Made by a program: the position numbers and the translations under genes. Positions 17,164 to 34,429 of a stretch of 34,429 bases of DNA are shown here, piece by piece. Where the stretch lies: positions 1 through 34,429 of the forward strand of contig CALMMQ010000067.1 in the NCBI GenBank assembly GCA_937868725.1. Direction: 5' to 3'. This DNA comes from an uncultured Pleomorphomonas sp. (GTDB taxonomy: Bacteria > Pseudomonadota > Alphaproteobacteria > Rhizobiales > Pleomorphomonadaceae). Below the pieces are notes generated by a model. It made no database searches, had not been told where the DNA came from, and was given only the letters and a program-made list of their open reading frames with translations. The first letter of the stretch is position 1; every line of letters begins with the position of its first letter.

Positions 17164-18092
17164 GCGGAGCGCCGCCCTCGGAGAGCATGATCATGACGAC
17201 CATCGGCCTGACGCTCGGCCCGGTGCTGTTCAACTGGAACGCCGACCGCCTCACCGACTTCTACGCGCGGGTCGCCGACGAGGTGGACGTCGATCGCGTC
17301 CATGTCGGCGAGGTGGTGTGCGGCAAGCGTATGCCGTTTACCGACAAGGTGTGGCCCGCCGTCATCGAGCGGCTGCAGGCGGCCGGCAAGGAGGTGGTGC
17401 TGTCGACGCTGGCGCTGCCCTACAATCCGCGCGAACGCCAGTCGGTGCGCGATATCTGCGACATGGGCGTGCTGACCGAGATCAACGACGTGACGGCGCT
17501 GCCGGCGCTGAGCGGCCGGCCGTTCCTGGTCGGGCCGTTCGTCAACGTTTACAACGAGGGGGCGGCGCGCTTCCTGGCCATGCGCGGCGGCGTCGGCATC
17601 TGTGCGCCGGTGGAACTGCCGCTCGCCTCGGTCACCACCATCGCCGGGCTCTGCCCGGATGTGGCCTTCGAGCTGTTCGCCTTCGGCCGGCTGCCGCTGG
17701 CGCTGTCGGGACGGTGCTATCACGCCCGCATCCATGGACTGCACAAGGACAGCTGCCAGTTCATCTGCGACCGCGACCCCGACGGCCTCGCCGTCGACAC
17801 GCTGGACGGGCAGAAGTTCCTGGCCGTCAACGGCATCCAGACCATGTCGCACGGCGTCACCGCATTCTGTCCGACGGCCGAGGAGGCGCGCGCCGCCGGT
17901 CTCGCCCGGCTGCGCCTGTCGCCGCACACGTTCGACATGACGGCGGTGGCCGCCACCTTCCGTCGCCGTTTGGCCGGGGCCATCGACCGAGCCGAGGCGC
18001 ACGCCGCCCTCAAGGCGCTCGGCCTGCCGGGCGAACTGGTCGACGGGTTCACGCGCGGTGTCGCCGGGAGTGCGCTCGCGGAGAGCGCATGA
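17160..18092 (+). CDS. ubiV: UbiV, partner of UbiU in O2-independent ubiquinone synthesis
   Basis: 310-aa U32-family protein forming the heterodimer with UbiU. Cysteines C54, C186, C199 and C203 reproduce the C-(long)-C-x12-C-x3-C cluster spacing of E. coli UbiV. Core motifs are LGPVLFNW near the N-terminus and FGRLPLALSGRCYHAR before the cluster. The ATGA overlap start at 17160 is listed, but the ATG at 17193 (GGAG nine bases upstream) fits the homology better and would shorten the protein by 11 residues. The stop overlaps nnrS by 4 bp. Together with ubiD and ubiX it makes a compact anaerobic ubiquinone module. Confidence 0.94.
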   Translation: MSGAPPSESMIMTTIGLTLGPVLFNWNADRLTDFYARVADEVDVDRVHVGEVVCGKRMPFTDKVWPAVIERLQAAGKEVVLSTLALPYNPRERQSVRDICDMGVLTEINDVTALPALSGRPFLVGPFVNVYNEGAARFLAMRGGVGICAPVELPLASVTTIAGLCPDVAFELFAFGRLPLALSGRCYHARIHGLHKDSCQFICDRDPDGLAVDTLDGQKFLAVNGIQTMSHGVTAFCPTAEEARAAGLARLRLSPHTFDMTAVAATFRRRLAGAIDRAEAHAALKALGLPGELVDGFTRGVAGSALAESA

Positions 18093-19189
18093 GCGCGCCC
18101 GAGCCATTCCGCGTCGCCTTTCTCCTGGCGGCGCTGACGGCGGCGCGGGCCATCGGTCCCTGGTTCGGCGATCCGGCGACGCACGCCGACGAGCTGATCT
18201 TCGGCTTTCTGGTGCTGCAGCTGTTCGGTTTCTTGCTGGTGGCGCTGCCGCGCTGGATCGGCCGGCCGCTCGGTCCCGCCCCGGCCATCTGGCTGGTGCT
18301 GGCGGCGCAGGGGGCCGCCTTCCTCCTCGGCTTCCACGATCTCGAACTGGCGGGACGGCTGCGATCGCTGATCGGCCTTGCCGGGGTGGCGCTGCTGCTG
18401 GCCAACACGCCGGCCGGCAAGACGGCGGCCACCTTTCCGGTGCTGCTGCTGGCCGGGCTGCACGCCGGGCTCGGCGTTGGCCGCTACACCTTCGATTGGG
18501 CGGGCAGCACCATGGCCGGCCTGGCCCTCATTCTGCTCATCTGCCTTGAAGTATCGAACCGGGTCGGGGCGGCGTTGGTGGCGGTGGCGCGCGAGCGGGC
18601 CGGGCGCCCGCCCCGGCCGGCGCTGCCGGGCTGGCTGCGACTGGCCGAGCGGGCATCGGCGGCGCTCGCCCTCGTGCTGTTCGGCCTCGACGGTCCGGCC
18701 GGTCTGCCGGCGCTGATCGCCGGTCTGCTCGGCGGTCATTGGCTGTGGCACCAGCGCGTCTGGCAGATCAAGCCCTATGCCGGCGTGGTGATCATGGTGG
18801 TCGGCATGGTGTGGAAGCGCGTCGGTCTGCTGCTGCTCGCCGCCTGGAGCTTCGGTGTCGGCGACGTGCCGCAGCTCGCCGTCATCCACGTTCTGACCAT
18901 CGGCGGGCTGGCGACGCTGGCCATCGGCATCGCCACGTCGATCGTGCGCAAGCGCGAGAAGCGGTCGCTGACGCCGTCCGGGCTCGCCAACCTCACCTAT
19001 GCCGCCATCATCGCCGCCATGGCCGCCCGGGTCGGCGGCGCGCTCGTGCCGGACTGGCACGACGGTCTGGTGATGACCGGCCGCTGGTTGTGGCTGACGG
19101 CGTTTACCGGCTATTTCGCCTTCGTCATCGCCCACGCCTTTCGCCCGCTTGCCAAGCCGGTCGAGCTGCCGCATCTGCACGAACCCTGA
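18089..19189 (+). CDS. nnrS: NnrS-family multi-helix membrane protein
   Basis: 366-aa inner-membrane protein with about ten to twelve hydrophobic helices and the NnrS hallmark HVLTIGGLATLAIGI (near residue 270). NnrS is a heme- and copper-containing protein tied to nitric oxide tolerance in Rhodobacter and Vibrio; its biochemical activity is not settled. The HxGR segment typical of many members is modified here to SLTPSG. It is coupled by a 4-bp ATGA overlap to ubiV, so it shares the anaerobic ubiquinone operon. The family match is good; the role in this operon is unproven. Confidence 0.82.
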   Translation: MSAPEPFRVAFLLAALTAARAIGPWFGDPATHADELIFGFLVLQLFGFLLVALPRWIGRPLGPAPAIWLVLAAQGAAFLLGFHDLELAGRLRSLIGLAGVALLLANTPAGKTAATFPVLLLAGLHAGLGVGRYTFDWAGSTMAGLALILLICLEVSNRVGAALVAVARERAGRPPRPALPGWLRLAERASAALALVLFGLDGPAGLPALIAGLLGGHWLWHQRVWQIKPYAGVVIMVVGMVWKRVGLLLLAAWSFGVGDVPQLAVIHVLTIGGLATLAIGIATSIVRKREKRSLTPSGLANLTYAAIIAAMAARVGGALVPDWHDGLVMTGRWLWLTAFTGYFAFVIAHAFRPLAKPVELPHLHEP

Positions 19190-19511: not shown

Positions 19512-20168
19512 ATGCAAAACGCGCCTTGCCTCAGCGATATCCTCGAACGTCTGGTACGGGACGGGTACGGGCGGCTGATGAACCTGCACCCGGTCAAGGC
19601 GGGCCACATCATCTATTCCGGCGATGCCGAGAGCGACGGCGATGTGCTGGTCGTCCGGTCGGGCCGGCTGCGCTGCTTCGTGTCGTTCGAGGGCAAGGAG
19701 CTGACGCTCTACATGCTGGAGGCCGGCGACGCGCTGCACCTGCACGGCGGGGCCATGCTCGAGGTCAAGAAGGAAGGCGAGGTCGCCATCCTGTCGGCCG
19801 CCTCGCTGCGCCAGCTGTCGGTGGCCGAGCCGGAACTGATGCTGGCCGTGCTGCCGGCCGTCGACCGCATGCTGCAGAAGTCGGTGCGGATGATCGAGGA
19901 CATGGCCTTCCACGGCGTCAAGCATCGACTGATCCGCGCGCTGTGCGACACGGCCGACCGCGTCGGCCGTCACGCCGAGCACGGCGTCGTCATCGACCAG
20001 CTGCCCAACGCCGAAGACTTCGCCATGCAGATCGGCGCCACGCGCCAGTCGGTGTCGACGGTGATCGCCGAACTGGTGCGCTCGGGCCTGCTCTATCGCT
20101 TCGGCACCGGCTCGCTGGTCATCTCCGATCTCGGCCGTCTGCGCCAGGAACTTGTCGGCCTGCGCTGA
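19512..20168 (+). CDS. cooA: CooA-type CO-sensing transcription activator (CRP/FNR family)
   Basis: 218-aa regulator closely patterned on Rhodospirillum rubrum CooA. CooA binds heme; CO displaces a ligand and the dimer then activates coo operons. The N-terminal length matches CooA nearly residue for residue. The heme pocket motif GDALHLHGG aligns with CooA GDMFCMHSG: His78 corresponds to the essential ferrous ligand His77, while His76 replaces the redox-switching Cys75. Long helix SVRMIEDMAFHGVK and recognition helix TRQSVST correspond to the CooA dimerisation and DNA-binding helices. The start is chosen at the ATG matching family length; the ribosome site is weak. It is followed by hypB on the same strand and the hydrogenase operon, with a CooA-type site upstream of cooM. 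Confidence 0.88.
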   Translation: MQNAPCLSDILERLVRDGYGRLMNLHPVKAGHIIYSGDAESDGDVLVVRSGRLRCFVSFEGKELTLYMLEAGDALHLHGGAMLEVKKEGEVAILSAASLRQLSVAEPELMLAVLPAVDRMLQKSVRMIEDMAFHGVKHRLIRALCDTADRVGRHAEHGVVIDQLPNAEDFAMQIGATRQSVSTVIAELVRSGLLYRFGTGSLVISDLGRLRQELVGLR

Positions 20169-20286: not shown

Positions 20287-21009
20287 ATGTGTAGCGAATG
20301 CGGCTGCGGCAGCCATACTCACGGCGAAAGCCGCACCATCCCCGTCGTCCAGGATCTTCTGAGCGAGAACGACCGTCTGGCCGCGCACCTGCGCGAGCAT
20401 CTCGACGAGCACGGCGTGCTCTGCCTCAACCTGATGTCCTCGCCGGGCTCGGGCAAGACGCATCTGCTCGAGGCGACCATCGACGCGCTGCCGCCTGGCC
20501 TGCGCGTCGCCGTCATCGAGGGGGACCTCGAGACCGAGAACGACGCCGAGCGTGTGCGCCGTCACGGCGTCGAGGCGGTGCAGATCACCACCGGCGTCAC
20601 CTGCCACCTCGATGCCCAGATGATCCACGATGCCATGCACGTGCTCGATCTGTCGAAGATCGACGTGCTGTTCATCGAGAACGTCGGCAACCTCGTCTGC
20701 CCGGCCGACTTCGACGTCGGCCAGCATCACGACGTGGTACTCCTGTCGGTGACCGAGGGTGACGACAAGCCGGACAAGTATCCTGTCATCTTCCGCAAGG
20801 CCGATCTGGTGCTGATCACCAAGGCCGACCTGCTGCCGTTCATCGAGGAGTTCGACCCGGCCCGGGCGCGGGCGGCCATCGAGCGGGTGCGCGGCACCGG
20901 TCCGGTGTTCGAGGTGTCGGCCAAGAAGGGCGCCGGGCTCGACGCCTGGATCGGCTGGATCGCGGCGCGCCTCGCCGACCATCGCGCCAAGCTCGCCGCC
21001 GGCGCCTGA
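20287..21009 (+). CDS. hypB: HypB, nickel-inserting GTPase for hydrogenase maturation
   Basis: 240-aa GTPase that, with HypA, delivers Ni to the large subunit of [NiFe] hydrogenases. The N-terminal CSECGC is the high-affinity nickel site (CxxCGC). The G domain shows P-loop SSPGSGKT, TTGVTCHLDA and ENVGNLVCP with the GTPase-domain metal cysteines, and KADL as the guanine-specificity motif. There is no long His-rich linker, only HTH near residues 10-12, so nickel storage is probably limited. The start has AAGGA upstream. It is co-directional with cooA and convergent with hypA. The natural client is CooH. Confidence 0.96.
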   Translation: MCSECGCGSHTHGESRTIPVVQDLLSENDRLAAHLREHLDEHGVLCLNLMSSPGSGKTHLLEATIDALPPGLRVAVIEGDLETENDAERVRRHGVEAVQITTGVTCHLDAQMIHDAMHVLDLSKIDVLFIENVGNLVCPADFDVGQHHDVVLLSVTEGDDKPDKYPVIFRKADLVLITKADLLPFIEEFDPARARAAIERVRGTGPVFEVSAKKGAGLDAWIGWIAARLADHRAKLAAGA

Positions 21010-21072: not shown

Positions 21073-21426
21073 TCAAGCCTCGGGACGGGCTGCCTCGAAG
21101 GATTCGATGTAGAGTTCCCGACCGGCCAGCACGTCGGCGTCGGGGCTGCCGCAATCGGGGCAGTCGAAGCGATAGCGCGGCACGTCGTATTCGCAGCCGC
21201 ATTTCGCGCAGCGGGCGCGCACCTGCACTTCGTCGATGTCGAGCCGGGCGCCATCGGCCACGGTGCCTTCGGCGAAAATCTCGAAACAGCCGCGCAACTG
21301 CCGGACGTCGAGACCGCGCAGGCGGCCGACCTTGAGGCGCACCGACAGGATGCGCTCGACGCCGTTCTGGCGCGCGTGATCGCGCAGGATGCGCATCAGT
21401 CCCTCGACAACGGCCGTTTCGTGCAT
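21073..21426 (-). CDS. hypA: HypA, nickel metallochaperone
   Basis: 117-aa partner of HypB. It starts with the invariant MHE, whose His2 forms the Ni site. The zinc-binding loop has C73, C76, C89 and C92 (CAKC and CPDC), the normal arrangement. It lies on the opposite strand to hypB, the two genes being convergent with 63 bp between stops, and it diverges from the hydrogenase operon, so it shares the 361-bp region with the cooM promoter. Co-induction by CooA from the same region is possible, but no separate site is seen on its side. Confidence 0.96.
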   Translation of the reverse strand: MHETAVVEGLMRILRDHARQNGVERILSVRLKVGRLRGLDVRQLRGCFEIFAEGTVADGARLDIDEVQVRARCAKCGCEYDVPRYRFDCPDCGSPDADVLAGRELYIESFEAARPEA

Positions 21427-21699: not shown

Positions 21700-21715
21700 T
21701 GTCGGCTACCCGACA
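21700..21715 (+). promoter_or_regulatory. CooA-type binding site upstream of cooM
   Basis: TGTCG-GCTACC-CGACA, a perfect inverted repeat matching the published CooA pattern TGTCR-N6-YGACA; symmetry extends one more base into the spacer and two further outward (8-bp arms, 21698-21717). A GTAACT at 21737-21742 could serve as the -10, which would place the site at about -41.5, the class II activator position used by CooA. The rest of 21427-21787 has only a weak FNR-like TTGATACTGACGAA (21621-21634) and no gene. Confidence 0.72.
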
Positions 21716-21787
21716 TACCTTGCCGACCTCAGGGGCGTAACTGCACGCTGACAGCCAAGATGCATGTCAGTGGAAGGATCTTCTCTC

Positions 21788-24700
21788 ATGCTATCCCTCT
21801 CGACGATCGACCCCATGGCCCTGGCCTGGATGGGTGCGATCTTCCTCTTCTTCGGCGAAATCGCCGCCCTCTACAGCCTGCCGAACCTGGTGCGCGTCGT
21901 CGTCTGGTCGACGATCGCCGAGATCGGCTACGTCCTCATCGGCTTCGGTCTGGCCGGTGACGCCGGAACCACCGGTGCCTTCATGCACATCGGCTATCAG
22001 CTGATCATGCGCGGCCTCGTCGTCTCCGCCGGCTGGTATCTGATCGTCCGCACCGGATCGTCAAAGATCGACGATCTGGCCGGCAGCGGCCATCGCATGC
22101 CGGTGGCGGCCACCCTGTTCGGCTTCGGCATGTTCTCGGTGATGGGCCTGTCGCCGTTCAAGGGCTCGTTCTCGAAGTTCCTGATCCTTTACGCTGCCAT
22201 CGAGCAGGGGCATTGGGCGCTCGCCGCCGTTGCCACCGCTGCCACGATCGTCGCCGCCTACTACTACATGGTGGTGATCCAGCGCGTTTGCCTGGAGATG
22301 CCGTCGCGTCGGGTCGAGCTGGTCGAAGGACCGCAGATCGCCCTGCCGATCGCCTACGCCCTCGCCGCGGCGACGGTGCTGATCTCGATCTGGCCGCTGC
22401 CGTTCCAGCACGTCGCCGAACTGCTGGCCGGCGCTACCGGCCAGGTTCCCGAGTTCGAATCGCCGTGGGCCACGCTGGTGCTGGTGCCCTACATCGGCGG
22501 TTTCGTGGTCTACGCCATCGGTCGCTTCGACACCCGGGCCCGTGACATCGCCGCCGTCGTGCTGGCGCTGGCCACGCTGGCCCTGGTCGTCTTCGACGGC
22601 AGCCTCGATCCGGCCTCGCGCGTCTTCGCGCTGGTGTTCGCCACCATCACGGCGGCGATGATCGTCTACTCGGTCGGCTACATGGCCCGGGCCGAATGGA
22701 CGAACCGCTACTACTTCTTCGCCTTCCTGATGATCGGCTCGCTGCTCGGCCTCACCACCGCGCACGAGTTCGGCAACTTCTATGTCTACTGGGAGCTGAT
22801 GACCTGGACGAGCTACTTCCTGGTCATTCACGAACAGACGCAGAAGTCGCTGCGCGCCGGCCTCATCTACTTCATGATGTGCGCTTCCGGCGCCTACGTC
22901 ATGCACTTCGGCATCCTGCTGACGCATGCCCAGGTCGGCTCGTTCGAGTTCGCCGCCCTGGCGGAGAAGGTGTCGTCGATCAGCCCGCTGGCCGGTCTGG
23001 TCATCGCCGCCTGCTTCTTCGTCGGCTTCGCGGTCAAGGCCGGTATCGTGCCGGTGCACTCCTGGCTGCCGATCGCCCATCCGGCGGCGCCGTCGTCGAT
23101 CTCCGGTCCGCTGTCGGGTATCCTGACCAAGGCCGGCATCTTCGGCCTGATCAAGGTGCTCTACCTGGTCATCGGCGTCGGTGCGCTCAATGCCTTCACC
23201 GGCTGGGGTATCAACCTCAACGTCGTGCTGATCACGCTCGGCCTGATCACGCTGCTCTACGGCGAGATCCGGGCGCTCTACGAGACCGAGATCAAGCGCA
23301 TGCTGGCCTTCTCGACGCTGGCCCAGATCGGCGAGATCGTCGCCGTTCTCGGCGTCGGCACGGCGCTCGCCGCCGATGCCAGCCTGCTGCACGTCACCAA
23401 CCACGCGGTCATGAAGACGCTGCTGTTCTTCGCGGCCGGTGCCTTCATCATGCAGACCGGCCGGCGCAACATCGCCGATCTCGCCGGTGTCGGTCGTGTC
23501 ATGCCGTTCACCGCCGGCTGCTACGCCCTCGCCACCGTGGCGATCATGGGCCTGCCGCCGTTCTCCGGCTTCGTGTCGAAGTTCCTGATGGTCTACGCCG
23601 CGGCGGAAGCCGGTCACTACGAAGTGGCCGTCGGCCTGCTGATCGGCGGCATCATCGCCGTGGTCTACTATCTCCGCGTCGTCCGCATGCTGTTCTTCCA
23701 TGCCTGGAAGGGTGAAGCGGGCGTCAAGGAAGCTCCGGTCACCATGCTGGTCGCCGTCGGCGCCCTGGCGGTGCTGATCGTCCTCGGCGGTCTGTTCCCG
23801 ACCTTCCAGCTCGACCTCGTCGGCGCCGTCGGCTCGGCCATCGCCGCCCGTGGCGGTCTGGCGCTCGCCAACCTGCCGGGCCTCGTCATGGTCTGGCCGG
23901 CCTCGGCTACCATCGCCATGATCGGTGCCGTCGTCGTCTGGCTGGTCGGCCGCCGCTCGATCGAGTGGGCCGGCAAGCTGGCCGTCGCCGTGCTGGTGCT
24001 GGCGCTCGTCGCCGTCGTCGCCGAAGCCCCGCGCTACGACACGCTGTCGTTCTGGTTCGCCGTGCTGATCGCCGGCGTCGGCGCGCTCAACATGCTGCAC
24101 GCCACCGCCTACCTGGCCCACAATCATGCGCAGAACCGCTTCTACGCGGCCTTCGGCATCATGATCGCCGGCCTGCTCGGCATGACCGCGGCCAAGGACA
24201 TCTTCACGTTCTTCGGCTTCTGGGAACTGATGTCGAGCTGGGCGCTGTGGGCGGCCATCATCCACGAGGAAAACGACGAGGCGCGGAGGGAAGGCTTCAA
24301 GTACTTCTTCTTCAACACCGTCGGTGCCTCGTTCATGTTCCTCGGCATCGCCATCCTGGCTTCCGGCTCGGGCACCTTCGATCTCGTCGAGATCGGCCAC
24401 AAGGCGCTCACCCTGCCGCTCGGCATCGTGGCGCCCGGCATCGTGCTGGTGTTCATCGGCCTCGTCATGAAGGCGGCCATGCTGCCTGTCCGCATCGACG
24501 TGCAGATGCACCCGGCTCTGGCGCCGACGCCGGTCAGCGGCTACATCTCGGCCGTGCTGCTGAAGTCCGGTCCGTGGGGCGTGCTCAAGCTGTTCACGCT
24601 GTTCGGCGGCGCGGCGGTGTTCACCCGCATCGGCGGCGAAATCGGCGGTCTGCCGGCGCTGATGGACATCATCGCCATCATTGCCGGCATCACCATCGTC

Positions 24701-25588
24701 TACGCCGGTGCCATGGCCGTGGTGCAGAACGGCATCAAGCTGCTGCTGATCTATTCGACGGTCAGCCAGCTCGGCTACGTGCTGATGGCGCTCTGCCTCG
24801 GTACCTCGCTCGGCGTTGCCGGCGGCCTGATGCACTTCGTCAACCACATGTTCCTCAAGGACACGCTGTTCCTCGTGGCCGGCGCCGTCATGGTGCACAG
24901 CCACGCCAGCCTGCTCGACGAACTCGGCGGTCTCGGCCGCAAGATGCCCATCACCTTCGGCATCTTCCTGTTCGCCGGTCTGTCGCTGGCCGGTGTGCCG
25001 CCGCTCAACGGCTTCTCCTCGAAGTGGCTGATCTTCTCGGCTGCCTTCGAGAGCGGTCACTGGGCCCTGGCCGTCGGTGCCATGGTGTCGAGCCTGTTCA
25101 CCCTCGCTGCCGTGCTGAAGTTCGCCCACGCCGCCTTCATGGGCGCCCCGACGCCCAAGGCGCTCGAGGCCCACGAGGCGCCGCTCGCCATGCTGATCCC
25201 CATGGGTCTCTTGACGGCGGCCAGCGTGCTGATCGGCTTCTTCCCCGGCATCCTGCTGGTGCCGATCGCCGGCATCGAGGCGGAGCTTGGCCTGACGCCG
25301 ATCGACGCCAGTCTGTTCGGACCGCTGCCCGGCATGGGTGGCTGGAGCCCGACGCTGCTCAGCATCCTGGTGCTGATCCTGGCGGCCGTGTTCATCCCGT
25401 GGATGCGCCTCGTCTATCGCGGCGCCGGCATCAAGCGCACGGGTCTGCATCTGTCCGGTGCCACGCCTCTCGACTTCCTGCCGGAGACGAGCGGTCGCGT
25501 CGGTACCAACAACCTGTTCGAATCCCCGACGGCTGTCATCCGGGGCGCCCTGGTGCCCAAGAAGACCGGCAAGGCCGAGCAGCTCTAA
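21788..25588 (+). CDS. cooM: CooM, giant antiporter-like subunit of CO-induced hydrogenase
   Basis: 1266-aa polytopic protein, similar in size and architecture to R. rubrum CooM. It is built from NuoL/NuoM/Mrp-type antiporter modules: a partial module (about residues 1-240), then two complete ones (about 245-660 and 740-1150). Seen: GYMARAE and YWELMTWTSYFLV in module 2, with the proton-channel lysine segment FAVKAGIVPVHSWLP; FWELMSSWALW and VMKAAMLPVRI in module 3; and GLSPFKGSFSKF / GLPPFSGFVSKF / GVPPLNGFSSKW, the recurrent helix-12 motif, once per module. It should couple H2 evolution to ion pumping. The start at 21788 has GGAAGGA nine bases upstream; an ATG at 21764 is possible. First gene of cooMKLXUH. 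Confidence 0.93.
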   Translation: MLSLSTIDPMALAWMGAIFLFFGEIAALYSLPNLVRVVVWSTIAEIGYVLIGFGLAGDAGTTGAFMHIGYQLIMRGLVVSAGWYLIVRTGSSKIDDLAGSGHRMPVAATLFGFGMFSVMGLSPFKGSFSKFLILYAAIEQGHWALAAVATAATIVAAYYYMVVIQRVCLEMPSRRVELVEGPQIALPIAYALAAATVLISIWPLPFQHVAELLAGATGQVPEFESPWATLVLVPYIGGFVVYAIGRFDTRARDIAAVVLALATLALVVFDGSLDPASRVFALVFATITAAMIVYSVGYMARAEWTNRYYFFAFLMIGSLLGLTTAHEFGNFYVYWELMTWTSYFLVIHEQTQKSLRAGLIYFMMCASGAYVMHFGILLTHAQVGSFEFAALAEKVSSISPLAGLVIAACFFVGFAVKAGIVPVHSWLPIAHPAAPSSISGPLSGILTKAGIFGLIKVLYLVIGVGALNAFTGWGINLNVVLITLGLITLLYGEIRALYETEIKRMLAFSTLAQIGEIVAVLGVGTALAADASLLHVTNHAVMKTLLFFAAGAFIMQTGRRNIADLAGVGRVMPFTAGCYALATVAIMGLPPFSGFVSKFLMVYAAAEAGHYEVAVGLLIGGIIAVVYYLRVVRMLFFHAWKGEAGVKEAPVTMLVAVGALAVLIVLGGLFPTFQLDLVGAVGSAIAARGGLALANLPGLVMVWPASATIAMIGAVVVWLVGRRSIEWAGKLAVAVLVLALVAVVAEAPRYDTLSFWFAVLIAGVGALNMLHATAYLAHNHAQNRFYAAFGIMIAGLLGMTAAKDIFTFFGFWELMSSWALWAAIIHEENDEARREGFKYFFFNTVGASFMFLGIAILASGSGTFDLVEIGHKALTLPLGIVAPGIVLVFIGLVMKAAMLPVRIDVQMHPALAPTPVSGYISAVLLKSGPWGVLKLFTLFGGAAVFTRIGGEIGGLPALMDIIAIIAGITIVYAGAMAVVQNGIKLLLIYSTVSQLGYVLMALCLGTSLGVAGGLMHFVNHMFLKDTLFLVAGAVMVHSHASLLDELGGLGRKMPITFGIFLFAGLSLAGVPPLNGFSSKWLIFSAAFESGHWALAVGAMVSSLFTLAAVLKFAHAAFMGAPTPKALEAHEAPLAMLIPMGLLTAASVLIGFFPGILLVPIAGIEAELGLTPIDASLFGPLPGMGGWSPTLLSILVLILAAVFIPWMRLVYRGAGIKRTGLHLSGATPLDFLPETSGRVGTNNLFESPTAVIRGALVPKKTGKAEQL

Positions 25589-25609
25589 GGGAGAGGAGAC
25601 TTCTCAAAA

Positions 25610-26569
25610 ATGTCCAACCAACTTGCGATATTGCTGGCGGTTCTCCTCTTCCCCGGTGGAGTGTTCGCCCTCGTCCTGGGTCTGGCGCTGAAAGGCGTCG
25701 ACCGTCGGGTGGCTGCGCGGCTGCAGAGCCGCATCGGCCCGCCGCTGGCCCAGCCGTTCTTCGACGTGATCAAGCTCGGCTTCAAGCGCACCACCGTGCC
25801 TGAGGTCGCCAGCCAGAACGTCTTCCTGTATGCGCCGCTGGTCGGTGTCATCTCGGTGCTGCTGGCCGTGGCGCTGGTGCCGATCACCGGCGTCTACACG
25901 CCGGCGCCGGCCATCGGCAACCTGTTGGTGCTGCTCTACCTGCTGATGATCCCCGGCATCGTGCTGATGATCGCCGGCTCGGCTTCGGGCTCGCCCTACG
26001 GCGCCATCGGTTTTTCGCGCGAAATGGCGCTGATGATCGCCTACGAAGGTCCGCTGGTGCTGATCGCCGCGGCGGTCGCCATCCGCACCGGCGTCGGCAT
26101 GGGCGGCTGGGTGACCTTCTCGCTGTCGGACATCATCGCCTACCAGCGCGAACATGGCTCGTTCCTGTTCGACCCGGTGATGTGGCCGGCGGTCGCCGCC
26201 TTCTGCTGCTTCTACCCGGCCAACCTCGGCATCGTGCCCTTCGACATTCCGGAAGCGGAAACCGAAGTGCTCGAAGGCCCGCTGCTCGAGTACTCCGGTC
26301 CGGTGCTGGCGCTGTTCAAGGTCATGTCGGCGCTGAAGAAGGTGGTGGTGCTGAGCCTCGGTATCGCCATGTTCCTGCCGTTCGCTCCCGACAACTGGGC
26401 GCTGGGGCTGATCGTCTGGCTGATCAAGCTGGTGGTGCTGATGGTGATCGGTGTCACGGCGCTGCGTGTGGCCATCGGCCGCATGCGCATCGACCAGGCC
26501 TTCACCTTTTTCCTGAAGTGGCCGCTGCTGCTCGCTGTTGCGAGCCTGGCGGTCGTGGTCGTGGTCTGA
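25610..26569 (+). CDS. cooK: CooK, NuoH-like membrane subunit
   Basis: 319-aa membrane subunit homologous to complex I NuoH and HyfC/EchB, linking the hydrogenase arm to the ion-pumping arm. It has about eight hydrophobic helices. Conserved segments are QSRIGPP (residues 38-44), GSPYGAIGFSREM and the acidic loop PFDIPEAETEVLEGP, which in NuoH forms the quinone/proton path entrance. The start is preceded by GGGAGAGGAG. It is 21 bp after cooM and 10 bp before cooL. Normal length, no oddities. Confidence 0.95.
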   Translation: MSNQLAILLAVLLFPGGVFALVLGLALKGVDRRVAARLQSRIGPPLAQPFFDVIKLGFKRTTVPEVASQNVFLYAPLVGVISVLLAVALVPITGVYTPAPAIGNLLVLLYLLMIPGIVLMIAGSASGSPYGAIGFSREMALMIAYEGPLVLIAAAVAIRTGVGMGGWVTFSLSDIIAYQREHGSFLFDPVMWPAVAAFCCFYPANLGIVPFDIPEAETEVLEGPLLEYSGPVLALFKVMSALKKVVVLSLGIAMFLPFAPDNWALGLIVWLIKLVVLMVIGVTALRVAIGRMRIDQAFTFFLKWPLLLAVASLAVVVVV

Positions 26570-26579
26570 GGAGGGCAAG

Positions 26580-27017
26580 ATGGGCCTGATACCCGATTTC
26601 AAGAAGATCGCCACCCGCTCGCCCTGGCTCTACCGGATCAACGCCGGCTCGTGCAACGGCTGCGACGTGGAGATGGCCGTCACGGCGCTGATCCCGCGCT
26701 ATGACGTCGAGCGTCTCGGCTGCCAGTACTGCGGCAGCCCCAAGCACGCCGACATCGTGCTGATCTCCGGGCCGCTGACCGTGCGCGTCAAGGACGCGGT
26801 GCTGCGCCTCTATGACGAGATTCCCGATCCCAAGGTGACGGTGGCCGTCGGCGTCTGTCCGATTTCCGGCGGCATCTTCCGCGAGAGCTACGCCGTGCTG
26901 GCGCCGATCGACCAGTACATCCCGGTCGACGTCAACGTGCCGGGCTGCCCGCCGCGGCCGCAGGCGATCATTGCCGGCGTGGCCAAGGCCATCGACATCT
27001 GGCGCGAACGTCTCTGA
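26580..27017 (+). CDS. cooL: CooL, hydrogenase small subunit (NuoB-like)
   Basis: 145-aa small subunit carrying the proximal [4Fe-4S] cluster. Cysteines C25 and C28 in SCNGCDVE (the CxGC-DxE form typical of group 4 hydrogenases rather than the CC of complex I), C93 in GVCPISGG and C123 in PGCPPRP should bind the cluster. Two more cysteines, C48 and C51 (CQYC), lie in a loop. The start at 26580 has TGAGGAGG upstream. It is tightly spaced between cooK and cooX. Confidence 0.95.
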   Translation: MGLIPDFKKIATRSPWLYRINAGSCNGCDVEMAVTALIPRYDVERLGCQYCGSPKHADIVLISGPLTVRVKDAVLRLYDEIPDPKVTVAVGVCPISGGIFRESYAVLAPIDQYIPVDVNVPGCPPRPQAIIAGVAKAIDIWRERL

Positions 27018-27031
27018 GGAAAGGCTGAAAG

Positions 27032-27535
27032 ATGAACTTCCTGTCGCTTTTTGCCCGCAATCTCAAGAGCGGGCCCCAAGTGGAAGCCTTTCCCTTTGGT
27101 CCGGCTTTCACGCCCGATCGCCTGCGCGGTCGTATCGTGTTCAACGCCGATCATTGCGAAGGCTGCCGCATCTGCGAGCGCGTTTGCCCGGCCAACGCCA
27201 TCCGCTTTGCCAAGACGCCCGACGGCATGACTTTCGATTGCTGGCATAACACCTGCGTGTTCTGCGGCAACTGCGAGTTCTATTGCCCGACGGACGCCAT
27301 CCACCAGACCAACGACTGGAATCTTGCCCATACGCAGGCCGAAAAGTTCGATATGGTGGAGCATGGCCTCATTCCGAACCAGAAGTGTGTCGAGTGCGGC
27401 GCCACGGCGCTCAACACGGCGCCGATGGTCAAGAATGCCAAGCCGCCGCTGTCGGAAACCGAGTACGCCGAAGTGCGCGCCCGTTGCCCGAAGTGTCGCG
27501 CCAAGTATCTCAAGAACCGGAAGGTCCCGTCATGA
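27032..27535 (+). CDS. cooX: CooX, two-[4Fe-4S] ferredoxin subunit with C-terminal zinc-ribbon-like motif
   Basis: 167-aa polyferredoxin subunit (NuoI/HyfH-like) passing electrons from the external ferredoxin towards CooL. Two classic cluster motifs: C42-C45-C48-C52 (CEGCRICERVCP) and C75-C78-C81-C85 (CVFCGNCEFYCP). The C-terminal 50 residues have two further CxxC pairs (C119/C122 and C152/C155), which look like a zinc ribbon or rubredoxin-like knuckle. The start is preceded by GAGGAAAGG. Its stop overlaps the cooU start (ATGA). Confidence 0.93.
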   Translation: MNFLSLFARNLKSGPQVEAFPFGPAFTPDRLRGRIVFNADHCEGCRICERVCPANAIRFAKTPDGMTFDCWHNTCVFCGNCEFYCPTDAIHQTNDWNLAHTQAEKFDMVEHGLIPNQKCVECGATALNTAPMVKNAKPPLSETEYAEVRARCPKCRAKYLKNRKVPS

Positions 27536-28164
27536 GCCGTCTACCTGAAGACCTGAAAGTCCGCCTCGACGCCGTGGCGCCGGCCGGCATCGAGTTTTCG
27601 TCGACCGTCGACGCCAATGGCGTCACCGTCGCCTGGGCCGGCCTTGCCAACCATGGCGATCTCAAGTCGGTCGGCCAGCTGATCCATGAGCTGGGCGGTC
27701 GTCTGGCGATGATCACCTGCACGCAGCCGTCGGCTCCGGAAGAAGAAGAGGAAGACGAGGACGAGGAGGCCGAGGAGGGCGCCGAGGCCAAGGCGGCCGA
27801 GCCCAAGGAGACCCCCAAGTCGTTCGGCGGCACGCCGCTCGACGGCACGTCCTACGAGATCGACTATCACTTCGACATTGGCGGCGATGCCCTGACCGTC
27901 ATCGCCTACGTGCCGCAGGGTGGTTCGATCGCCTCGCTGACGCCGCTGTTCCGCAATGCCGACTGGCATGAGCGCGAGATGATGGAACTCTACGCCGTCG
28001 TCGTCACCGAGCATCCGGACCCGCGCCGGCTGTTCCTCGACCAGTCGGTCGACAATGCCGTGCTCGAACGGCTGATTCCGTTCTCGACGCTGGTCAACGC
28101 CGCCAGCACCAAGGGCCTGTGGGAGCGCGTTCTCTCCAATGCCAACAAGAAGGGTGCAGCATGA
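27532..28164 (+). CDS. cooU: CooU, NuoC-like subunit with an acidic insertion
   Basis: 210-aa hydrophilic subunit of the NuoC/HycE-N family, docking the large subunit. The conserved C-terminal motif is WHEREMMELYAVVVTEHPDPRRL (in part, residues about 145-165). Unusual: residues about 66-98 form a low-complexity stretch dominated by Glu and Asp, then Ala/Lys/Glu, sitting between the N-terminal strand region and the NuoC core. Without it the protein would be near the length I recall for R. rubrum CooU (about 173). Overlaps of 4 bp on both sides couple it to cooX and cooH. Confidence 0.92.
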   Translation: MSRLPEDLKVRLDAVAPAGIEFSSTVDANGVTVAWAGLANHGDLKSVGQLIHELGGRLAMITCTQPSAPEEEEEDEDEEAEEGAEAKAAEPKETPKSFGGTPLDGTSYEIDYHFDIGGDALTVIAYVPQGGSIASLTPLFRNADWHEREMMELYAVVVTEHPDPRRLFLDQSVDNAVLERLIPFSTLVNAASTKGLWERVLSNANKKGAA

Positions 28165-29261
28165 GCTCGAACAACGTTCCTGAAACCTTCAGCATTCCCG
28201 TCGGCCCACTGCATGTGGCCCTCGAGGAGCCGATGTATTTCAAGATCGACGTGCAGGGCGAGACCGTCACCCACGTCGACATCAATGCCGGCCACGTGCA
28301 TCGCGGCATCGAGTATCTGACCACCAAGCGGACGATGTATCAGAACGTCGTGCTGACCGAGCGCATCTGTTCGCTGTGCTCCAACAGCCATCCGCAGACC
28401 TTCGCCATGGCGGCCGAACAGATCGCCGGCATCGAGGTTCCCGAGCGTGGCATCTACCTGCGCGTCGTCGCCGACGAGCTGAAGCGCGTCGCCTCGCACC
28501 TGTTCAATACGGCCCTGCTGGTGCACCTCACCGGCTACGAGACGTATTTCATGCACATGATGCAGGTGCGCGAGATCTGCCAGGACACGATCGAATCGAT
28601 CTTCGGCAACCGTCAGGACATCGGTGCCATGTGCATCGGCGGCGTGCGCTACGATCTGGACGAGAAGAGCATCGCCTACATCCTGAGCCAGCTCGACCGC
28701 ATCGAGCCGGAAGTGCACGACATCATCAAGACGTACAAGTCGAACGGCTCGATCCTGCGCCGCACCAAGGGCGTTGGTGTGCTGACCCACGCCGATGCCA
28801 TCGCCACCGGCGTCGTCGGTCCGGTGGCCCGTGCCTCGGGTGTCGACTATGACGTGCGTCGCGAAGCGCCGTACGCCGCCTACGATCGTCTGCCGCTGGT
28901 CGTCCATGGCGCCACCGATGGCGACGTCTGGTCGCGGGCCATGGTGCGCCTGCAGGAGACGCTGACGTCGATCGATCTGCTGCGCGTCTGTCTGCGCGAT
29001 CTGCCGGGCGGCGCCGTCAACATCAACGACCGTCCGGACATCCCGCCCGGTCAGGCGATCGCCCGTTGCGAAGCGCCGCGTGGCGAGGTGCTGTACTATC
29101 TGCGCACCAACGACACGCCGCAGCCCGAGCGCGTCAAGTGGCGCGTGCCGACGTTCATGAACTGGGACGCGGTGTGCTTCATGATGCAGGGCGCCAAGGT
29201 GGCCGACATCGCCATCATCGTCAACAGCATCGATCCTTGCCTCTCCTGCACGGAGCGGTGA
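28161..29261 (+). CDS. cooH: CooH, catalytic [NiFe] large subunit of CO-induced hydrogenase
   Basis: 366-aa group 4 [NiFe] hydrogenase large subunit (NuoD homologue). The Ni-Fe site cysteines are C70 and C73 (ERICSLCSNSH) and C360 and C363 (DPCLSCTER). The protein ends exactly at that Arg, with no C-terminal extension, so no maturation endopeptidase cleavage is expected; this is a known property of CooH/EchE-type subunits. HypA and HypB nearby provide nickel. It starts with an ATGA overlap on cooU. Product: H2 evolution from ferredoxin electrons, coupled to ion translocation through CooM. Complex I NuoD is excluded by the four intact cysteines. Confidence 0.95.
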   Translation: MSSNNVPETFSIPVGPLHVALEEPMYFKIDVQGETVTHVDINAGHVHRGIEYLTTKRTMYQNVVLTERICSLCSNSHPQTFAMAAEQIAGIEVPERGIYLRVVADELKRVASHLFNTALLVHLTGYETYFMHMMQVREICQDTIESIFGNRQDIGAMCIGGVRYDLDEKSIAYILSQLDRIEPEVHDIIKTYKSNGSILRRTKGVGVLTHADAIATGVVGPVARASGVDYDVRREAPYAAYDRLPLVVHGATDGDVWSRAMVRLQETLTSIDLLRVCLRDLPGGAVNINDRPDIPPGQAIARCEAPRGEVLYYLRTNDTPQPERVKWRVPTFMNWDAVCFMMQGAKVADIAIIVNSIDPCLSCTER

Positions 29262-29563: not shown

Positions 29564-29761
29564 ATGGCCTTTATGATCGAAACCTCCACCTGCACCTCCT
29601 GCGGCGCCTGCGAAGACGAATGCCCGAACAAGGCGATCAGCCACAAGGGCAAGGTCTACTCGATCAATGCCAAGAAGTGCACCGAGTGCGAAGGCCACTT
29701 CGACACCCAGCAGTGCGCCGAAGTGTGCCCGTCGGGTTCGTGCATCCCGGCTGCCGCCTGA
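29564..29761 (+). CDS. fdxN: Small 2[4Fe-4S] ferredoxin, FdxN type
   Basis: 65-aa low-potential ferredoxin. First cluster C10-C13-C16-C20 ([11 protein letters not shown]); second C39-C42-C51-C55, with an eight-residue loop between the second and third Cys, the Chromatium/FdxN variant. An extra Cys60 follows. The start has AGAGGAGAG nine bases upstream. It is on the same strand as the coo operon but 302 bp downstream with its own leader, so it may be a separate unit. Such ferredoxins reduce nitrogenase in related bacteria; here it could also carry electrons from CO dehydrogenase to CooX or from CO oxidation to biosynthesis. No cooF-type protein is in the window. Confidence 0.9.
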
Positions 29762-30800: not shown

Positions 30801-31466
30801 ATGTCGGGTGCGACCAGTCCGTTCTGCGCTGCCATCGAACGTCTTGCTTCTGCCAAGGGGCGGGGGCGGCTCGGTACGCGCCGGCTGGCCGAAGGGCAGC
30901 TGATGTGCGCTGCCGACGATCCCGATCTTGAGGACGACGGTCTGCTGGTGGTGCGGTCGGGCCGGCTGCGCTGCTTCACTTCGTTCGAGGGCAAGGAGCT
31001 GACGCTGTTCACGCTCGATCCCAACGACGTGGTGTTCGTCGAAGCCGGGTTCATGCTGGAAGCCCGCCGCGACTGCACCTTCTGGGTGATGAGCCTGTCG
31101 GCTTTCCGCGAGGCGGCGCTCGACGAGCCGCTGCTGGCGCTGTCGGCCGTCGACGTGTTCGAGCGCATGCTGAGGAAGTCGGTGCGCATGGTCGAAGACA
31201 TGGCGTTTTTCGACGTCCGCCGCCGGCTGATCCGCGCCCTGTGCGAAACCGCCGATCGCGACGGCCGCAGCGCCGAGGCTGGTGTCGTCATCGATCGCCT
31301 GCCCAACGCCGAGGCCTTCGCCACGGAAATCGGCGCCACGCGCCAGACCGTCTCCACCGTGTTCGCCGAACTGATGCGGGCCGGGCTGATGGAGCGGGCC
31401 GGGGCGTCGTCGCTGGTGATCGCCGACATCGGGCGGCTCAGGGAAAAGCTGGTGGTGGCGCGCTGA
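30801..31466 (+). CDS. CooA-like CRP/FNR regulator lacking the heme-ligand histidine
   Basis: 221-aa paralogue of the CooA-type protein at 19512. Shared blocks are LLVVRSGRLRCF, SFEGKELTL, KSVRM(V/I)EDMAF, LIRALC-TAD and the recognition helix TRQTVSTVFAEL. In the effector pocket, NDVVFVEAGFMLEA replaces GDALHLHGGAMLEV: the positions of CooA Cys75 and His77 are Phe and Glu, so heme ligation in the CooA manner is not expected. The start at 30801 has GAGG five bases upstream; an ATG three bases earlier is possible. The neighbours downstream, xdhC and mop on the same strand, suggest it controls the molybdenum aldehyde oxidoreductase. Effector unknown. Confidence 0.85.
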   Translation: MSGATSPFCAAIERLASAKGRGRLGTRRLAEGQLMCAADDPDLEDDGLLVVRSGRLRCFTSFEGKELTLFTLDPNDVVFVEAGFMLEARRDCTFWVMSLSAFREAALDEPLLALSAVDVFERMLRKSVRMVEDMAFFDVRRRLIRALCETADRDGRSAEAGVVIDRLPNAEAFATEIGATRQTVSTVFAELMRAGLMERAGASSLVIADIGRLREKLVVAR

Positions 31467-31500: not shown

Positions 31501-32391
31501 ATGGACGTCTACGAGGAACTCATCGCCGAGCGCAAGGCCGGCCGTCGCGCCGCTCTCGCCACCATCGTCAACGTGGTCGGTTCGGTGCCGTCGTATCAGA
31601 CGGCCAAGATGCTGGTGCGGGAAGATGGCTCGATCGTCGGCACCATCGGCGGCGGCGCCGCCGAAGCCGAGGTGATGATCAAGGCGCGGGAAGTCATCGA
31701 GAGCGGCAGCCCGGCCATGGTGTCGTTCAAGCTGATTGAGAACCCCGACTATGACACTGGCATGGTGTGCGGTGGCAGCCTCGACGTGTTCGTCGAGCCG
31801 ATCATGCCGCAGCCGGTGGTCTACATTTTCGGCGGCGGCCACATCGGCCGGCTGACGGCCCGGGCCGCCAGCATGGTGGGCCTCGCCACTGTGGTGGTCG
31901 ACGACCGGCCGGCCTTCGCCAACCGCGAGCGCTTCCCCGACGTCTCCGAGCTCTATGCCGAGAGCTACGACACGGTGACCGACAAGCTCGCCCCCAACGC
32001 CAACGGCCTGATCTTCATCGCCACGCGCTGCCACGATCTCGACGCCCGCATCCTGAAGTGGGCGGTCGAAACGCCGGCCAGCTACATCGGCATGATCGGT
32101 TCGCGCCGCAAGGTGCTGACGGTCTACGACCGGCTGGTCGCCGAAGGTACCGCCCCCGATCGGTTCAACCGCGTCCGCGCGCCGGTCGGTCTCGATCTCG
32201 GCGCCAAGACGCCGGAAGAAATCGCCTTTTCGGTCGTTGCTGAAATGATCGCCCACATCCGGCGCGGCGCCGCCGCCATTTCGCTCAGCCGCAACATGGC
32301 GGCGCTGGCGCAGAAGTCCAATCGTCCCGCCGGCCATCATGACAGGGAGGAGGTCAGTCCGGACGCGGTCCGGCCAGCCCAGGTCGCCTGA
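31501..32391 (+). CDS. xdhC: XdhC/CoxI-family molybdenum cofactor maturation protein
   Basis: 296-aa protein that in xanthine-dehydrogenase systems binds Moco and helps fit it with its terminal sulfido ligand before insertion into the apoenzyme. N-terminal XdhC_CoxI domain (residues 1-70, with ATIVNVVGSVP and GTIGGGAAE). C-terminal Rossmann-like XdhC_C domain from about 100, with VVYIFGGGHIGRLTARAA and later YIGMIGSRRK. The start at 31501 has GGGAG six bases upstream; an in-frame TTG two codons earlier is less likely. It is 34 bp after the CooA-like gene and 128 bp before mop, its presumed client. Confidence 0.93.
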   Translation: MDVYEELIAERKAGRRAALATIVNVVGSVPSYQTAKMLVREDGSIVGTIGGGAAEAEVMIKAREVIESGSPAMVSFKLIENPDYDTGMVCGGSLDVFVEPIMPQPVVYIFGGGHIGRLTARAASMVGLATVVVDDRPAFANRERFPDVSELYAESYDTVTDKLAPNANGLIFIATRCHDLDARILKWAVETPASYIGMIGSRRKVLTVYDRLVAEGTAPDRFNRVRAPVGLDLGAKTPEEIAFSVVAEMIAHIRRGAAAISLSRNMAALAQKSNRPAGHHDREEVSPDAVRPAQVA

Positions 32392-32519: not shown

Positions 32520-34429
32520 ATGGAACGGATTTGTTTGAATGTGAACGGTGTCGATCGCTGGATCGTCGCCGAGAAGGATACGGATCTCGCCACGGTGCTG
32601 CGTGAGCAGATGCTGCTCACCGGCTGTAAGGTCTGCTGCGCCGACGGCCAGTGCGGTTCGTGCACGGTCGTTCTCGACGGCAAGCCGGTGCGCGCCTGCG
32701 TGACGCCGATGGCCAAGGTGGCCGCCAATTCCCGCATCACCACCATCGAAGGTCTCGGCACGCCGAGCAATCTGCATCCGCTGCAGGTCGCCTGGATGGC
32801 CCACGGCGGCGCCCAGTGCGGCGTCTGTACCCCCGGCTTCATCATGTCGGCCAAGGTTCTGCTCGACCAGAACAAGTCGCCGACCCGCGAACAGGTCCGT
32901 GCCTGGTTCCACCGCAACCGCAATCTCTGCCGCTGCACCGGCTACAAGCCGCTGATCGACGCCGTCATGGATGCCGCCGCCGTGCTGCGCGGCGAGAAGT
33001 CGATCGAGGATCTGACGCCCAAGGCCAAGGACGATGGTTCGATCCTCGGCACGCATTACGTCCGTCCGTCGGCTGTGGCCAAGGTTACCGGCGCCTGGGA
33101 CTTCGGTGCCGACGTCGCCCTGCGCATGCCGCACGGCACGCTGCGCCTCGCCCTCGTGCAGGCCAACGTCAGCCACGCCAACATCAAGGGCATCGACACC
33201 AGCGAAGCCGAGAAGATGCCGGGCGTCGAGAAGGTCATCACCTGGAAGGACGTCAAGGGCCGCAACGCCATCACCGGCCTCATCACCTTCCCGACCAACA
33301 AGGGCGACGGCTGGGACCGTCCGATCCTGTGCAAGGAGAAGATTTTCCAGTTTGGTGACGCCATTGCCATTGTCGCCGCCGACACCGAAGCGCATGCGCG
33401 AGCCGCTGCCGCCAAGGTGAAGGTCGATCTCGAAATGCTGCCGGCCTACCTGTCGGGCTTTGCCGCCCTGGCGCCGGACGCCATAGAGATCCATCCGGGC
33501 GTTCCCAATGCTTATTACGAGCAGGGCATCGTCAAGGGTGGCGACACCAAACCGCTGATGTCGGGCGCCGCCGCGCTGGTTGACATCACCACCTACTGCT
33601 CGCGCCAGCCGCACCTGCACCTTGAGCCGGACTGCGGTGAAGCCTTCGTCGACGAGAATGGCGTGCTGACCATTCTGTCGAAGTCGATCGGCGTGCATCT
33701 GCATCATGCCATGATCTGCCCGGGCCTCGGTGTGGCGCCGGACAAGCTGCGCCTGATCCAGAACCCGACGGGCGGTACCTTCGGCTACAAGTTCTCGCCG
33801 ACCATGGAAGCGCTGCTGGGCGTCGCCGCCCTCGCCACCGGCAAGCCGGTGTCGCTGGTCTACGATCAGTACCAGAACATCACCTACACCGGTAAGCGCA
33901 GCCCGGTGAACTCGAACATCCGCCTCGCCTGCGACAAGGATGGCAAGCTCACCGCCATGGAACTCGACTGGTGGCTCGACCACGGTCCGTACTCCGAGTT
34001 CGGTGACCTCGTGACGCTGCGTCAGGCCCAGTTCACTGGTGCCGGCTATCATCTCGAGAACATCCGCGGTCACGGCCGTACGGTGGCGACCAACCATGCC
34101 TGGGGCTCGGCCTTCCGCGCCTACGGCTCGCCGCAGTCCTTCCTCGCGTCTGAAATCGCCATCGACATGCTGGCCGAGAAGATGGGCGAGGATCCGTTCG
34201 AGTTCCGCTACAAGAACCTCTACAACGAGAACTCGACCTCGCCGACCGGCCAGAAGCCGGAAGTGCATGTGCTGCCGACGCTCTTCGACATGGTGCGTCC
34301 GAAGTACCAGGAAGCCAAGGCGCGCTGCGAGGCCTTCAACAAGGCGCACACCGACAAGAAGCGTGGCATCGGCGTGTCGCTCGGCATCTACGGCTGCGGC
34401 CTCGACGGCCCGGACAGCTCGGAAGCCCG
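32520..34429 (+). CDS. mop: Single-chain molybdenum aldehyde oxidoreductase (Mop type), 3'-truncated by window edge
   Basis: First 636 codons of a xanthine-oxidase-family enzyme; close in sequence to Desulfovibrio gigas Mop (907 aa), oxidising aldehydes to acids. An N-terminal plant-type [2Fe-2S] domain has C40, C45, C48 and C60; the second helical [2Fe-2S] domain has C100, C103, C137 and C139 (QCGVCTPGF, LCRCTGYKPL). These positions are identical to D. gigas Mop. The Moco domains follow directly with no FAD domain, as in that protein: VSHANIKGIDTSEA, ITGLITFPTNKGDGWDRP, GGTFGYKFSPT and GSAFRAYGSPQS. The catalytic Glu near the C-terminus is beyond the window. The start has AAGGAGG seven bases upstream. 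The electron acceptor is not evident. Confidence 0.95.
   Translation, partial: MERICLNVNGVDRWIVAEKDTDLATVLREQMLLTGCKVCCADGQCGSCTVVLDGKPVRACVTPMAKVAANSRITTIEGLGTPSNLHPLQVAWMAHGGAQCGVCTPGFIMSAKVLLDQNKSPTREQVRAWFHRNRNLCRCTGYKPLIDAVMDAAAVLRGEKSIEDLTPKAKDDGSILGTHYVRPSAVAKVTGAWDFGADVALRMPHGTLRLALVQANVSHANIKGIDTSEAEKMPGVEKVITWKDVKGRNAITGLITFPTNKGDGWDRPILCKEKIFQFGDAIAIVAADTEAHARAAAAKVKVDLEMLPAYLSGFAALAPDAIEIHPGVPNAYYEQGIVKGGDTKPLMSGAAALVDITTYCSRQPHLHLEPDCGEAFVDENGVLTILSKSIGVHLHHAMICPGLGVAPDKLRLIQNPTGGTFGYKFSPTMEALLGVAALATGKPVSLVYDQYQNITYTGKRSPVNSNIRLACDKDGKLTAMELDWWLDHGPYSEFGDLVTLRQAQFTGAGYHLENIRGHGRTVATNHAWGSAFRAYGSPQSFLASEIAIDMLAEKMGEDPFEFRYKNLYNENSTSPTGQKPEVHVLPTLFDMVRPKYQEAKARCEAFNKAHTDKKRGIGVSLGIYGCGLDGPDSSEA

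Follow-up and report, generated by a model that had tools for sequence, protein, structure and literature searches.

A Coo-type hydrogenase operon in an uncultured Pleomorphomonas sp. belongs to a branch without CO dehydrogenase and has genomic ties to an aldehyde oxidoreductase

What does a Coo-type energy-converting hydrogenase serve in a genome in which no carbon monoxide (CO) dehydrogenase gene is found? The question is raised by a window of 34,429 nucleotides (contig CALMMQ010000067.1, C67 in our numbering) from the draft genome of an uncultured Pleomorphomonas sp. (4.13 Mb, 128 contigs, 98.87% complete), which carries the hydrogenase operon cooMKLXUH behind a CooA-type operator. An initial annotation took the operon to be CO-induced and the organism to be a likely hydrogenogenic CO oxidiser. 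Our genome comparisons do not support that description. What is new here, on genome evidence, is a branch of Coo-type hydrogenases that is free of CO dehydrogenase (CODH) and wired to a molybdopterin aldehyde oxidoreductase (MOP). The parts of the literature that were covered hold no statement linking the two enzymes, and we claim nothing wider.

The six hydrogenase genes lie contiguously on the plus strand between positions 21788 and 29261 in the order M-K-L-X-U-H, which is identical to that of the published R. rubrum operon (PMC4257681; here and throughout, citations refer to the parts of each source that were covered). The product of cooM (21788-25588) is an antiporter-like membrane subunit of 1266 residues with three Proton_antipo_M stretches, so that both the gene order and the triple-module CooM of the initial annotation are borne out. 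Next come cooK (25610-26569), encoding a NuoH-like membrane subunit (NADHdh/NuoH); cooL (26580-27017), the NuoB-like small subunit of the NiFe hydrogenase; cooX (27032-27535), a subunit with two [4Fe-4S] clusters; cooU (27532-28164), a NuoC-like subunit; and cooH (28161-29261), the large subunit (NuoD/NiFe-like), which lacks a C-terminal extension and ends in SCTER. CooH contains both CxxC nickel-ligand pairs (RICSLC and DPCLSC) and is aligned over its whole length with its best PDB matches, formate hydrogenlyase subunit 5 and Mbh alpha. By these sequence features cooMKLXUH is a group 4c (Coo-type) energy-converting NiFe hydrogenase, and its nearest named kin, as judged by CooH, are Pleomorphomonas spp. 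(88-89% identity). Where CODH-type clusters go on to cooF, the window has a gene for a 65-residue 2[4Fe-4S] ferredoxin (29564-29761, plus strand), which lies beyond the range of 21700-29261 that had been annotated. A ferredoxin gene also follows cooH in 14 of the 15 loci with the nearest CooH matches, our first set of relatives, the exception being L031. After about 1 kb without a called gene come a CooA-like regulator gene that had gone unmentioned (reg2, 30801-31466), a gene for an XdhC-type aldehyde oxidoreductase maturation factor (31501-32391; 274 bits to NF045664, under its cut-off of 350) and mop (32520-34429), which is cut by the contig end; all three are on the plus strand.

A search with the CODH model TIGR01702 (cut-off, 478 bits) found no cooS in the draft genome. 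The best match, at 27 bits, is an open reading frame (ORF) that we take to be a hybrid-cluster protein. The initial annotation had named the absence of any CO dehydrogenase gene beforehand as contrary evidence, and for cooS this is what we observed. No cooF lies beside the hydrogenase of the window, where the genes after cooH encode the ferredoxin, a CooA-like regulator, XdhC and MOP (the genome as a whole was not searched for cooF). The window's mop was also considered as CoxL and rejected (98.7 bits against a CoxL cut-off of 991). When loci L048-L053 were scanned for motifs resembling AYxCSFR, a single stray match turned up, and its frame is interrupted by stops; no search for CoxL with its own model was made. 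Among the 15 nearest-relative genomes, TIGR01702 matches over the cut-off occur in two (P. carboxyditropha and G013), and in G015 two contigs each carry a partial match. P. oryzae and P. diazotrophica are among those with no match above the cut-off. We then surveyed the order in an even sample of 397 genomes from 141 genera, our own counted in, calling a CooH of the CODH-free kind at an identity of at least 65% and cooS at E 1e-60 or better. The hydrogenase is present in 24 genomes, 22 of which have no cooS; cooS occurs in four of the 397 (three over the model cut-off), two of these being among the 24. One genome, G317, has a CODH-type CooH (56%) and cooS and is without MOP. Given that no cooS was found in 22 of the 24, our genome among them, the CO-oxidiser reading is not supported by the sequence comparison.

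Could a CODH partner of a CO-induced hydrogenase have been missed by the draft assembly? The conserved CooA-type box and the Coo subunit order would fit such a partner, P. carboxyditropha of the same genus does have cooS, and conversion of CO to H2 and CO2 is reported for a Pleomorphomonas-like isolate (PMC5603099). However, a nearly complete genome without a cooS match, and the same result in 22 of the 24 genomes, make the explanation highly improbable, as does the setting of the P. carboxyditropha cooS, which sits with a second coo cluster of its own and a CooA of the C-x-H type.

That second cluster shows that two kinds of Coo operon have to be told apart. In P. carboxyditropha (L103) and G013 (L104) it reads cooMKLXUH-cooF-cooS-cooC-...-CooA (the L104 cooM lies off the contig), with a CooH that is 61% identical to that of the window; against CooH from cooS-bearing genomes or clusters identity is 57-61%, which places it close to these CODH-linked enzymes and not to Hyc, Mbh or Nuo. 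In both genomes cooF-cooS adjoin the CODH-type cluster and not the CODH-free kind. In a tree of 29 CooH rows the CODH-free kind (24 rows) and the CODH-linked kind (4 rows) fall on opposite sides of a single branch, supported at 99/99; its outgroup lies too far off to tell which kind is older, and R. rubrum CooH is not among the rows. Of the six subunits, CooX and CooU probably face the electron donor. When the two clusters of P. carboxyditropha are compared, these are the least similar (CooX 44% and CooU 37% identity, the other four subunits 53-74%), while two comparisons within the CODH-free kind gave 60-62% for CooX and 57-63% for CooU. This is as expected if the electron donor changed. As a separate observation, contig C12 of G045 (L173) carries a diverged cooS-like gene (474 bits against the cut-off of 478) whose product is 34% identical to P. 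carboxyditropha CooS; the genes called in the stretch examined include no coo hydrogenase.

The best candidate for the donor is encoded on the same contig. Despite its truncation, the window's mop scores 1108 bits over 636 residues against NF045668 (cut-off, 1100), and its best PDB matches are the aldehyde oxidoreductases 1sij (917 bits, the best) and 1dgj, presumably from D. gigas and D. desulfuricans, respectively. By sequence it is a member of the D.-gigas-type molybdenum aldehyde oxidoreductase family, with a predicted activity to match. The remainder of mop opens another contig of the same genome, C119 (L058), where it is 89% identical to the R. tepidamans (L027) protein and is followed by homologues of the L027 genes DiclOR, DVU1557, MT1556, CGA1555, NTP1551 and TrsS (45-64% identity), so that C67 and C119 very likely adjoin.

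MOP and the CODH-free hydrogenase occur together almost without exception. In the 15 relatives' genomes MOP is over the cut-off in 12, split across contig ends in G003 and G009, and absent in G015. In the order survey 24 genomes have the CODH-free kind of CooH, 25 have MOP, 24 have both and 372 have neither, the sole MOP-only genome (G361) being 89% complete. The same 6 of 141 genera have both (Fisher 1e-10), but because 13 of the 24 hydrogenase genomes belong to one genus, these counts are not independent and the p-values overstate independence, which weighs against the link. The two genes lie within 10 kb on the same contig in 8 of the 24, drawn from four numbered families (our own genome, five of g74, G227 and G339), and they are also linked in R. 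tepidamans L027, which was reached by another search and stands outside the 24. A single locus of G331 (g74) reads cooM-...-cooH-xdhC-mop-DiclOR-DVU1557-CGA1555-NTP1551-TrsS-ligase-(GAF-CooA-like)-hypB. Here NTP1551, TrsS, the ligase and the fusion were read by eye from ORFs, and the ferredoxin gene is uncalled, although it is called in G164. (Genes were called with a simple codon-usage script, which missed some in L162 and L164-L167.) In a class-wide sample of 362 genomes, our own included, MOP (E 1e-200) and the CODH-free kind of CooH (E 1e-90) were found in our genome only, which is a matter of rarity and not of linkage. Plasmid records contained no CooH at E 1e-90 or better.

A CooA-type palindrome, TGTCGGCTACCCGACA, is located at 21700-21715, and the published consensus for CooA sites is TGTCGGCNNGCCGACA (PMC545781). 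The palindrome is the only exact match to the pattern in the window and is separated from the cooM ATG by 72 nt, so the TGTCG-N6-CGACA box of the initial annotation, with its fit to the CooA half-sites, holds good. Numbers of such boxes carry little information: with one mismatch allowed the window has 2 matches against 4.22 expected, and a scan of the 4.1-Mb genome for TGTCR-N6-YGACA, proposed initially together with the search for cooS that found none over the cut-off, gave 18 places against about 16 estimated for a uniform genome. The genome-wide count was therefore rejected as evidence, although the reversed-pattern control gave 1. What lifts the window box above chance is its conservation in place. 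Of 21 cooM upstream regions of the CODH-free kind, the window's included, 19 have an exact match to the pattern and the other 2 have one mismatch, at 81-115 bp ahead of cooM (L019, L025 and L029, without a cooM start, are left out). The commonest form among the relatives is TGTCGGCTAGCCGACA, from which the window copy differs at one inner position; the CooA site of the D. vulgaris cooSC operon is the same letter for letter (PMC545781, Table 10). A start site that would place the box at about -41.5 had been predicted from the -10-like GTAACT at 21737-21742 (plus strand). This element is weak, matching TATAAT at 2 of 6 positions, but a TA(A/G)(C/G) core 21-22 nt past the box recurs in the 11 loci inspected by eye, and so a promoter with the box near -41.5 is plausible. 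The idea that the box marks one kind of hydrogenase was rejected, as it is exact before cooM in the CODH-type locus L031, whereas the other CODH-type cooM upstream regions examined, L103 and L167, have nothing better than 2 mismatches. As an aside, two CooA-type boxes, one with a mismatch, stand 33 bp apart (about three helical turns) before cooM at L162:3503-3551, and the double box is present in all five g74 loci examined (L162-L166).

The same kind of box is found before the mop operons. Allowing at most one mismatch, it precedes xdhC in 12 of the 14 loci whose mop is separate from the hydrogenase (2 of the 12 boxes being exact), but in none of 6 loci in which xdhC follows the hydrogenase genes, as it does in the window with reg2 between; L164 and L166, where xdhC is uncalled, and L029 are left out. 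Other called genes of the same loci served as a control and gave 23 of 426, the 5 exact boxes among these being the same cooM and xdhC boxes viewed from the neighbouring gene. In L030 and L098 the cooM box and the xdhC box are identical within one genome. Upstream of the window's xdhC there is no box (best, 3 mismatches), and xdhC-mop is possibly driven from elsewhere, with cooM or through reg2. CooA-like genes accompany both operons: at least one was found in 25 of 26 genomes searched, and they lie within 15 kb of mop in 18 of 25 MOP genomes and within 15 kb of cooH in 15 of 24, counts that are limited by contig ends and by a match limit that admits true CooA, the sole one in G339. Gene neighbourhood, co-occurrence and shared boxes make a tie between the hydrogenase and MOP our best reading of the genomes.

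These patterns bear on a second explanation, in which the hydrogenase would be a general fermentation outlet for ferredoxin (reduced by pyruvate, for example), or would run in reverse to provide reduced ferredoxin for nitrogen fixation, with mop as no more than a fellow traveller in the same anaerobic lifestyle. The small ferredoxin might take electrons from any donor, and nitrogenase genes have been reported in a Pleomorphomonas isolate (PMC13286885). However, the almost one-to-one co-occurrence with mop in the survey of 397 genomes, the closeness of the genes, the boxes before both operons and the CooA-like genes near both amount to more than shared habitat predicts, and we regard this explanation as rather unlikely.

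Is the signal still CO? R. rubrum CooA holds its haem through Cys75-x-His77 and has a proline-rich N-terminus. The window's first regulator gene, reg1 (19512-20168, plus strand), encodes a CRP-family protein of 218 residues that is CooA-like by phmmer matches to the CooA structures 1ft9 and 2fmy, by alignment and by tree. The 'CO-sensor gene' of the initial annotation is thus a CooA homologue, but it has H-x-H in place of C-x-H, with His for Cys75 and His77 kept, and no PPRF start. The second regulator, reg2, has F-x-E, with Glu at position 77, and the L174 regulator of a same-genus relative has Asn there. We aligned 16 distinct regulators of these clusters; fragments L048 and L154 were dropped, L148 is the same gene as L172 and was counted once, and most regulators found later are outside the alignment. 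One branch with 100/100 support splits these 16 from five CooA rows in a midpoint-rooted tree, for which the program warns that long branches meet at the root. Cys75 is present in none of the 16 and His77 in 10, the other 6 having Asn, Gln or Glu, while the recognition motif RQxxS is present in all 16. Of the later regulators, those read by eye have Gln (L205 and L207), Arg (L206), Gly (L208) or His (L209) at position 77. In each of the two cooS clusters the CooA protein has C-x-H and, close to its N-terminus, a PPRF stretch; the L031 row, which is CooA-like, has S-x-H, so that Cys75 is not universal.

Several regulators near mop are fusions of 533-568 residues, with a GAF domain found by Pfam in L205 (3176-4777, plus strand) and L207 (2032-3636, minus strand) and by eye in L206 (8285-9991, plus strand). 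A further GAF-CooA fusion, also recognised by eye, is encoded at L208:1684-3522 on the minus strand. The L207 fusion has weak similarity to the DhaR sensor (27.8 bits). Because GAF fusions lie near mop and one is weakly DhaR-like, they suggest an organic signal. The regulators of our own genome are reg1 and reg2 only, neither with a GAF match. The L208 fusion adjoins an ABC-transporter pair and a moeA-like gene (read by eye), which suggests that it also controls molybdate or tungstate supply. A third explanation is that the regulators still sense CO, or NO, and that the hydrogenase is made on that gas for another purpose. His77 in 10 of the 16 regulators, reg1 among them, and the universal RQxxS would fit; the absence of Cys75 from all 16, the replacement of His77 in the remaining 6 and the GAF fusions do not, and we consider this explanation improbable.

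We think it reasonably probable that the locus belongs to a CO-independent, aldehyde-driven, H2-evolving system with cooMKLXUH as its membrane hydrogenase module. In the scheme that we infer, MOP would oxidise an aldehyde to the acid, and the electrons would flow by way of its two [2Fe-2S] centres into the small ferredoxin encoded after cooH, and from there via CooX and CooL to the NiFe site of CooH, where H2 would form while CooM and CooK pump protons or sodium ions outwards. Joint switching of the hydrogenase and mop operons would fall to CooA-related regulators that keep the DNA site of CooA and have a lost or changed CO-sensing haem pocket, and that would bind the boxes in response to an organic inducer. 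An aldehyde-to-H2 chain through the D. gigas aldehyde oxidoreductase (AOR) has been reconstituted in vitro (PMC10223205).

Apart from the kinship of the genomes, several points weigh against this scheme. The aldehyde link is drawn from genome comparison, and the reconstituted chain ran via flavodoxin and cytochrome c3, not ferredoxin (PMC10223205). Other ferredoxin donors, such as pyruvate:ferredoxin oxidoreductase, are possible. In 16 of the 24 genomes cooH and mop are not within 10 kb on one contig; in G321, which is assembled as one contig, the distance is about 3 Mb. Among the 14 separate mop loci, the examined stretch of L096 contains no box and no CooA-like gene; L172 also has no xdhC box, but a CooA-like gene lies just ahead of its xdhC. 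The exact box before the CODH-type cooM of L031 belongs to a genome with cooS-like pieces. Finally, reg1, with the haem-ligand His retained, may yet be a CO sensor.

How does the locus compare with known systems? With the CODH-linked CooMKLXUH hydrogenases (group 4c) of R. rubrum and P. carboxyditropha it shares the six subunits, their order and the NiFe motifs, and with the R. rubrum coo operons a CooA-type operator (PMC545781). It differs in having the 65-residue ferredoxin and not cooF-cooS-cooC after cooH, in its separate CooH branch with much diverged CooX and CooU, in a regulator without Cys75 and the PPRF start, and, compared with the CODH-type cluster of P. carboxyditropha, in its exact box. 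MOP is of the same enzyme family as the D. gigas AOR (PDB 1sij/1vlb). The overall conversion would be that of the D. gigas chain of AOR, flavodoxin, cytochrome c3 and hydrogenase, aldehyde to H2 (PMC10223205), but MOP is proposed here to work with a ferredoxin and a membrane-bound, energy-converting hydrogenase, and CooA-type boxes precede both operons. In D. vulgaris the coo hydrogenase operon is likewise separate from cooSC, but cooS is present and cooF is listed in the hydrogenase operon; the parts of that account covered make no mention of an aldehyde oxidoreductase (PMC545781). The NCBIfam families named after D. vulgaris DVU_1551, 1555, 1556 and 1557 all follow mop in L027, together with TrsS and the dicluster-binding oxidoreductase. 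Each scores above its cut-off apart from TrsS (412 bits against 490), whose gene is truncated where the locus ends. Here they are tied to a Coo-type hydrogenase and CooA-like regulators. Whether the CO-independent Coo branch, MOP, the dedicated ferredoxin and the Trs-cluster genes together form an 'aldehyde hydrogenlyase', that is, a membrane-coupled proton respiration driven by aldehyde oxidation and governed by a CooA regulon in which the sensor has been converted from CO to an organic signal (haem ligands lost, GAF fused), we judge to be evenly balanced.

The remaining genes of the window lie upstream of cooM. As had been annotated, hypA and hypB are adjacent: hypB (20287-21009, plus strand) encodes the nickel GTPase of NiFe-hydrogenase maturation and hypA (21073-21426, minus strand) a nickel metallochaperone, over the cut-offs of TIGR00073 and TIGR00100, respectively. 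Upstream of reg1, positions 15632-18092 contain ubiT/ubiU/ubiV-like genes (oxygen-independent ubiquinone synthesis); UbiU is over its cut-off, the second is a U32 protein and ubiT was recognised by eye. Homologues adjoin the cluster in L174; ubiV also does so in L026, and it is found at the edges of loci L020 and L022. A ubiX-/ubiD-like pair on the minus strand (13468-15542) was named by reading the translations, with no model match. Between ubiV and reg1 lies a membrane protein gene (18089-19189), possibly NnrS-like in our estimation, whose longer frame has no NCBIfam match; homologues are present in those Pleomorphomonas loci whose stretch extends that far and in Oryzibacter L026. The window has no Rfam match at gathering cut-offs and no tRNA by scan.

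Genes of the coo type and CooA boxes are easily taken as marks of CO oxidation. For the CODH-free branch that label would be wrong, because 22 of its 24 genomes are without CODH and all 24 have MOP. The proposed system would offer a physiological electron sink for MOP-type enzymes and a new energy-conserving route from aldehyde to H2 in alphaproteobacteria. It may also be a natural case of a gas-sensing regulon that was retained while its signal apparently changed.

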